Positions 55,964-56,152 of a stretch of DNA of 64,000 bases are shown piece by piece. Position 1 is the first letter of the stretch. Each line of letters starts with the position of its first letter. A program made the translations under genes and the position numbers. Below the pieces are notes generated by a model. It saw only the letters and a program-made list of their open reading frames with translations. It searched no databases and was not told the DNA's origin. The stretch is from Bacteroidota bacterium (GTDB lineage Bacteria; Bacteroidota; Bacteroidia; Chitinophagales; Saprospiraceae): assembly GCA_029567325.1 (NCBI GenBank), contig JAKQLF010000243.1, positions 1-64,000 of the forward strand. The letters are read 5' to 3'.

Positions 55964-56152
55964 AGCCAAAACTATCAAATAAATGTCAATTTTGGCTGCA
56001 TATATTACATTTAGCAGCCAAAACTATTAAAATACTGTCAATTTTGGCTGTAAAAATATATTTATATAGCCAAAACTATAACTAATTGATTGGTTTTGGC
56101 TGCAAATATTGCTTTTATCAGCCAAAACATATACTTTTGCATTAAATTGGCT
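55964..56152. repeat. Array of eight half-sites AGCCAAAA/TTTTGGCT in alternating orientation every 26 bp (52 bp period)
   Basis: Half-site starts: 55964, 55990, 56016, 56042, 56068, 56094, 56120, 56145 (last one degenerate, AATTGGCT, shifted 1 bp). Confidence 0.95.
56109..56139 (+). promoter_or_regulatory. Candidate promoter of the AAA-DUF234 gene, inside the repeat array
   Basis: TTG (56109-56111), 20 bp spacer, TACTTTTG (56132-56139, TAnnTTTG). Confidence 0.55.

Follow-up and report, generated by a model that had tools for sequence, protein, structure and literature searches.

The window analysed here, a 64,000-nucleotide stretch of contig JAKQLF010000243.1 from a bacterium of the Saprospiraceae, carries an array of short half-sites in alternating orientation directly upstream of a gene for an ATPase-nuclease that matches PDC-S27, a family modelled in PADLOC. 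The array, the promoter element within it and the gene are located as follows.

55963..56153, no strand: array in which eight half-sites alternate in orientation, repeat every 52 bp on the same strand and overlap the ATPase gene promoter (exact matching, Tandem Repeats Finder (TRF), GC-core spacing)
55964..55971, plus strand: half-site 1, AGCCAAAA (exact match, as for half-sites 2 to 7)
55990..55997, minus strand: half-site 2, reading TTTTGGCT on the plus strand
56016..56023, plus strand: half-site 3
56042..56049, minus strand: half-site 4
56068..56075, plus strand: half-site 5
56094..56101, minus strand: half-site 6
56120..56127, plus strand: half-site 7
56132..56139, plus strand: Bacteroidota-type -7 box TAnnTTTG (TACTTTTG), between half-sites 7 and 8 (motif match)
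56145..56152, minus strand: half-site 8, degenerate, reading AATTGGCT on the plus strand, 6/8 bases agreeing (sequence inspection)
56156..57589, plus strand: 477-amino-acid ATPase / winged helix / PD-(D/E)XK-like nuclease, PADLOC PDC-S27 (Pfam, PADLOC, AlphaFold2)

The original prediction, made from the letters of this DNA, had described eight strictly alternating half-sites with start intervals of 26 bp six times and then 25 bp, and this description holds, with seven sites exact and the eighth degenerate. Exact copies of AGCCAAAA start on the plus strand at 55964, 56016, 56068 and 56120 and on the minus strand at 55990, 56042 and 56094; the window as a whole contains 17 matches against 6.8 expected, seven of which are packed within 164 bp, and TRF detects the 52-bp repeat with a score of 160. 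The same-orientation period of 52 bp, equated with five turns of B-DNA, likewise stands whichever base pair is chosen as the centre. The accompanying statement that 26 bp amounts to 2.5 turns proved inaccurate, since the intervals between GC cores alternate (30, 22, 30, 22, 30, 22 and 29 bp) and the figure hinges on the base pair taken as the centre. As had also been foreseen, a CRISPR array could be rejected: orientation alternates strictly and the half-sites measure 8-10 bp, whereas CRISPR repeats are near-identical, share one orientation and are separated by unique spacers. The genome-wide search that had been proposed for the spaced pair, run here as AGCCAAAA-N16-20-TTTTGGCT, returned six places in the whole 5.8-Mb genome, five of them in ATPase arrays (three in the window array and two in that of a paralogous ATPase, C132). 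The remaining one, the sole AGCCAAAA palindrome outside ATPase arrays, lies inside a coding sequence, and a regulon elsewhere in the genome was thus rejected.

Arrays and motifs across the family

Homologues of the ATPase-nuclease were sought in 61 genomes, comprising the window's own and 60 relatives, and were present in 21 of these, scattered at 0-23 copies per genome. The original prediction turned on whether periodic half-sites recur upstream of homologous ATPases. Using a strict test (a four-site detector with z > 4, searching periods of 48-58 bp), we found such arrays for 171 of the 282 homologues with usable upstream DNA, compared with 5/275 control regions taken 200-400 bp upstream. 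The mean period of these arrays is 52.58 bp, equal to five turns at 10.5 bp, and when spacings were scanned without bias in the DNA preceding 103 homologues, the sole same-strand peak fell at 51-54 bp. Neighbouring sites are oppositely oriented in 593/594 cases, clear sites are limited to four in 120/171 arrays, and within-array similarity is 81-92% for half-sites and ~40% for the gaps.

Related arrays take several forms. In Wolbachia phage WO, a PDC-S27 homologue (L342, MN180249.1, 11271-12734) adjoins head and portal genes and is accompanied by a strong palindromic array with a period of 56 bp, ACCGCGGT. The plasmid-borne homologues from Butyrivibrio fibrisolvens pNP243 (L333) and Emticicia oligotrophica pEMTOL01 (L335) are preceded by no more than one or two palindromic pairs, which may represent a minimal operator. 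A further array is listed at each of L263:2881-3180 and L134:2281-2520; in L134, the same motif lies ~500-700 bp upstream of the main array with an N stretch between the copies, possibly reflecting array expansion.

The sequence of the half-site varies from gene to gene, while the copies within one array change jointly, such that the nine arrays of the host genome display nine motifs. When half-sites were assigned to arrays by leave-one-out comparison, 55/55 in the host genome were matched to their own array, as were 66/76 and 50/56 in two other genomes, and the motifs of within-genome pairs were no more alike than those of between-genome pairs at equal protein identity. Because the motifs within a genome differ and assign to their own array, their reader must be gene-specific, which excludes a common host regulator. 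Binding of the arrays by another host protein, whether a regulator or a nucleoid protein, an idea for which the general occurrence of phased repeats is the sole argument, is accordingly very improbable: the motif of each paralogue is private, tracks the winged-helix residues of its own protein and follows the gene rather than the genome. Each gene copy in a genome therefore seems, from these comparisons, to have a private DNA address, and such private motifs would prevent cross-talk among the many paralogues. Within-genome pairs sharing all four of the specificity residues described below number 2 against 5.7 expected (110/2000 permutations).

Residue-base covariation in the winged helix

The protein encoded downstream of the array matches ATPase_2 in Pfam, and the PADLOC PDC-S27 model PDLC04984 covers nearly its whole length (residues 7-476 of 477, E 1.4e-196). 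Its earlier label, AAA-DUF234 ATPase, was not borne out, with no match to DUF234 (PF03008) among the Pfam hits at E 0.001; that label turned up solely in a note annotating the homologue from Wolbachia phage WO. An alternative in-frame TTG start inside the array, at 56090, is possible, and alignments of homologues begin at 56156. An AlphaFold2 model built from 65 sequences (mean predicted local distance difference test score 92.8) comprises an N-terminal ATPase, a winged helix with helices at 254-264, 273-280 and 286-297 and strands at 301-304 and 315-318, and, at the C-terminus, a domain resembling a nuclease; among solved structures it is closest in fold to 2qen and the Cdc6/Orc1 initiators (2qby, E 4e-9). 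The elements on which the following analysis depends are all on the plus strand.

56252..56275: Walker A GRRRVGKT, residues 33-40 (G33, G38, K39 and T40 in 284/284 homologues)
56495..56500: Walker B acidic pair D114-E115 (284/284 homologues)
56915..57109: winged helix, residues 254-318 (AlphaFold2 model; MarR-like match at 264-309)
57005..57046: N-cap and recognition helix, residues 284-297, with specificity residues 284, 287 and 290 (covariation)
57068..57097: wing loop, residues 305-314, with specificity residue 312 (AlphaFold2 model, covariation)
57344..57394: nuclease motif D397...E411-x-K413 (282-283/284 homologues)

We then compared half-site positions with every column of the protein alignment. 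The GC cores alternate between long (~29.5 bp) and short (~23 bp) gaps, and half-sites were oriented towards the long gap, that is, by DNA geometry alone. Two other ways of orienting them were discarded: similarity to TTTGGC placed half-sites from both strands together and obscured most of the signal (top score 0.244 by mutual information with average product correction, APC-MI), a fault cured by the long/short-gap orientation, and the phase relative to the start codon failed since it is conserved only modulo half a period. The comparison used 169 arrays with 124 representatives below 70% identity, so that some representatives are related up to that level.

With overall identity controlled, motif similarity was best predicted by the 15-residue window 283-297, which corresponds to the predicted recognition helix (0/500 family-wise permutations). 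Six residue-base pairs beat every permutation, and five of these lie in the winged helix: 284 with +1 (APC-MI 0.959 against a permutation maximum of 0.222), 287 with -2, 312 with +3, 290 with -2 and 287 with -3. At residue 284, N is paired with T at base +1 (33/33), S and T with C (31/31 and 8/8), and D and E with G (23/31 and 8/13); at residue 312, K is paired with A at +3 (62/66) and R with T (31/37); and base -2 is G with R290 (33/39) and A with T287 (22/26). The sixth pair joins R122 in the ATPase domain (56519-56521 in the window) to base -6 (0/60 permutations), and this residue may contact DNA flanking the core. The window protein itself, with S284, T287 and K312, agrees with the code, its half-site reading CA-GC-CAAAA.

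The pairs also change together in evolution. We traced these changes on a FastTree phylogeny (one estimate, with states set by parsimony) from which the winged-helix columns had been left out. Residue class 284 and base +1 switch jointly on 21 branches (Fisher p 2e-13), and residue 312 and base +3 on 16, eight in each direction (p 5e-11); counting by branch also deals with the remaining relatedness among representatives. Applied to 112 callable genes outside the set from which it was derived, the code's predicted base wins in 64, loses in 26 and ties in 22, where chance would give about one win in three. In the AlphaFold model the specificity residues sit at the N-terminal end of the recognition helix and in the wing, which are the canonical DNA contacts of winged-helix proteins. 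Since the significant pairs fall almost entirely in these two elements and two of them have co-changed on many branches, the ATPase almost certainly binds its own array through its winged helix, a conclusion as firm as sequences alone allow, and would be expected to do so in vitro. The supposition that the repeats reflect selection for a DNA-binding protein, plausibly the ATPase itself, is thus strongly supported by the recurrence of the arrays together with the location of the code.

Promoter overlap and the role of the array

The -7 box of the window gene is not an isolated case: a TAnnTTTG box is found within the last 70 bp of 105/171 array genes against 10 expected, usually between half-sites. 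Because this promoter element lies inside the array, where bound protein would cover it, negative autoregulation is the likeliest role of the array. We consider it probable, judging from sequence analysis, that the array serves the ATPase-nuclease encoded directly downstream as its cognate operator with multiple sites, and that this operator is self-repressing and specific to each paralogue. In the mechanism that we envisage, the winged helix would read the half-sites of its own array, the GC core and adjacent bases being read by residues 284, 287 and 290, where the recognition helix begins, and the A/T flank by residue 312 of the wing. Several protomers, perhaps cooperatively, would occupy phased positions, one every five turns, and would repress their own transcription, the -7 box lying between the last half-sites, until a signal acting through the ATPase released them and lifted repression; the nuclease would presumably have a target of its own. 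Each paralogue would have switched specificity jointly with its array, such that copies could persist in one genome without cross-talk.

Several observations weigh against this interpretation. The eight sites of the window array exceed what simple repression needs, and an operator role alone leaves unexplained the second copy of the array that follows the stop codon in about 10/164 genes. Some 40% of homologues do not pass the strict test for four sites, many nonetheless showing the predicted core, and no array was found upstream of three haloarchaeal relatives checked, which have ~25% identity. Directly at the start codon, these haloarchaeal plasmid relatives (L339, L340 and L341) have in common a conserved AAGTCATTATCG-N-AATCATTATC-AGAGTATG stretch that could be a simple operator.

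With its many sites in helical phase, the window array would also be compatible with wrapping or polymerising on DNA, as had been suggested for it. It is conceivable, if on balance rather unlikely, that the array is chiefly a platform for assembly or sequestration, on which a phased ATPase oligomer or filament would keep the nuclease inactive or poised, with transcriptional control being secondary. Four to eight sites held in phase over five turns would suit such a platform, as would the resemblance of the protein in sequence and fold to TnsC, which forms filaments on DNA, and to ORC/Cdc6. The Walker A, Walker B and nuclease D-E-K residues, kept in 282-284/284 homologues, point the same way, and because of this conservation the ATPase and nuclease activities both appear to be under selection. 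Against a platform stand the restriction of most arrays to just four clear sites and the position of the promoter inside the array in most cases.

A further alternative is that the inverted repeats act as hairpins of RNA or single-stranded DNA. Pairing is conceivable given that neighbouring half-sites are complementary, but the period is fixed at five DNA turns while the gaps vary, the position of the -7 box implies that transcription starts beyond most of the array, the code links the motif to winged-helix residues, and an Rfam search gave no family near its gathering score. Hairpins are for these reasons scarcely credible, and the earlier view that DNA rather than RNA is the relevant molecule is strongly supported.

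Mobility, known relatives and significance

We also considered whether array and gene together form a selfish mobile cassette, with the array as its end or recombination site. In favour of this are the patchy distribution of the family, the solitary copies amid housekeeping genes with few defence neighbours, the direct-repeat arrays found on both sides of some genes and the decayed copies that keep their arrays (L111 and L027). However, no within-genome pair exceeds 69% identity in ten genomes (maxima of 51-69%), so the copies are not recent duplicates and have not arisen by recent intragenomic transposition; neither a transposase nor a consistent 3' end was found; and flanking arrays can come from tandem duplication and deletion, as in L111. 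We therefore regard a mobile cassette as unlikely, and attribute the flanking arrays to duplication and recombination combined with acquisition from outside. A near-identical second array in direct repeat with the first lies just past the stop codon in L149, L138, L164, L165, L292 and L309, and L111:1-660, on contig C319 of the window's own genome, is a decayed duplicated copy in which tandem C-terminal ATPase fragments are each followed by an array. No clean empty site was found for the window copy; an orthologue of its left neighbour is present in one genome of the same genus, where the right-hand context differs.

Among 80 neighbouring genes there were few PADLOC matches (about two PDC-S01, one RtcR-like and one RmrA) and the named remainder were mostly housekeeping genes; the defence label thus rests on the family and not on local context. 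Location in a defence island is not required for membership of PDC-S27.

Cdc6/Orc1 initiators, which share the ATPase and winged-helix fold, bind arrays of inverted origin recognition boxes, whereas the protein described here has a C-terminal nuclease, an array in its own promoter and a specificity that differs per paralogue. TnsC of Tn7-like transposons is similar in its ATPase domain (E 6e-5), but its filaments are not sequence-specific in this way, and neither transposase nor transposon ends were found at the PDC-S27 locus. Autoregulated defence and toxin-antitoxin operators such as those of RptR, whose repressor binds direct repeats in its own promoter (PMC12255303), and AbiE likewise place a repressor on promoter repeats; here, however, the effector ATPase-nuclease appears to do the reading itself, at sites that alternate in orientation with five-turn phasing. 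PDC-S27, to which the window protein is a full-length match, is an unvalidated candidate phage-defence family from a guilt-by-embedding approach, consisting of an ATPase fused to a PD-(D/E)XK domain and ranking with the common defence candidates of archaea and bacteria (PMC12988326). The genes studied here differ in being solitary rather than in defence islands, and neither arrays of PDC-S27 or related ATPases, nor a self-recognition code, nor a regulatory mechanism is described in the open-licence PMC literature searched.

Taken further, and with lower probability, the family may be a large one of single-gene ATPase-nucleases with private, evolvable DNA addresses, in which a phased oligomer on its own array would both repress the gene and restrain the nuclease, and copies could coexist (up to 20 or more per genome) only if their winged-helix specificities differed, like incompatibility groups; the shortfall noted above of within-genome pairs sharing all four specificity residues lends this weak support. 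For a family of winged-helix proteins, a code of such clarity obtained from sequence alone is, in our judgement, unusual. Together with the array it would provide a first mechanistic handle on PDC-S27, namely a target on DNA, a means of predicting how single-residue swaps alter specificity and a likely control point, and the PDC-S27 copies, up to about 20 per genome, would constitute a natural set of orthogonal regulators.
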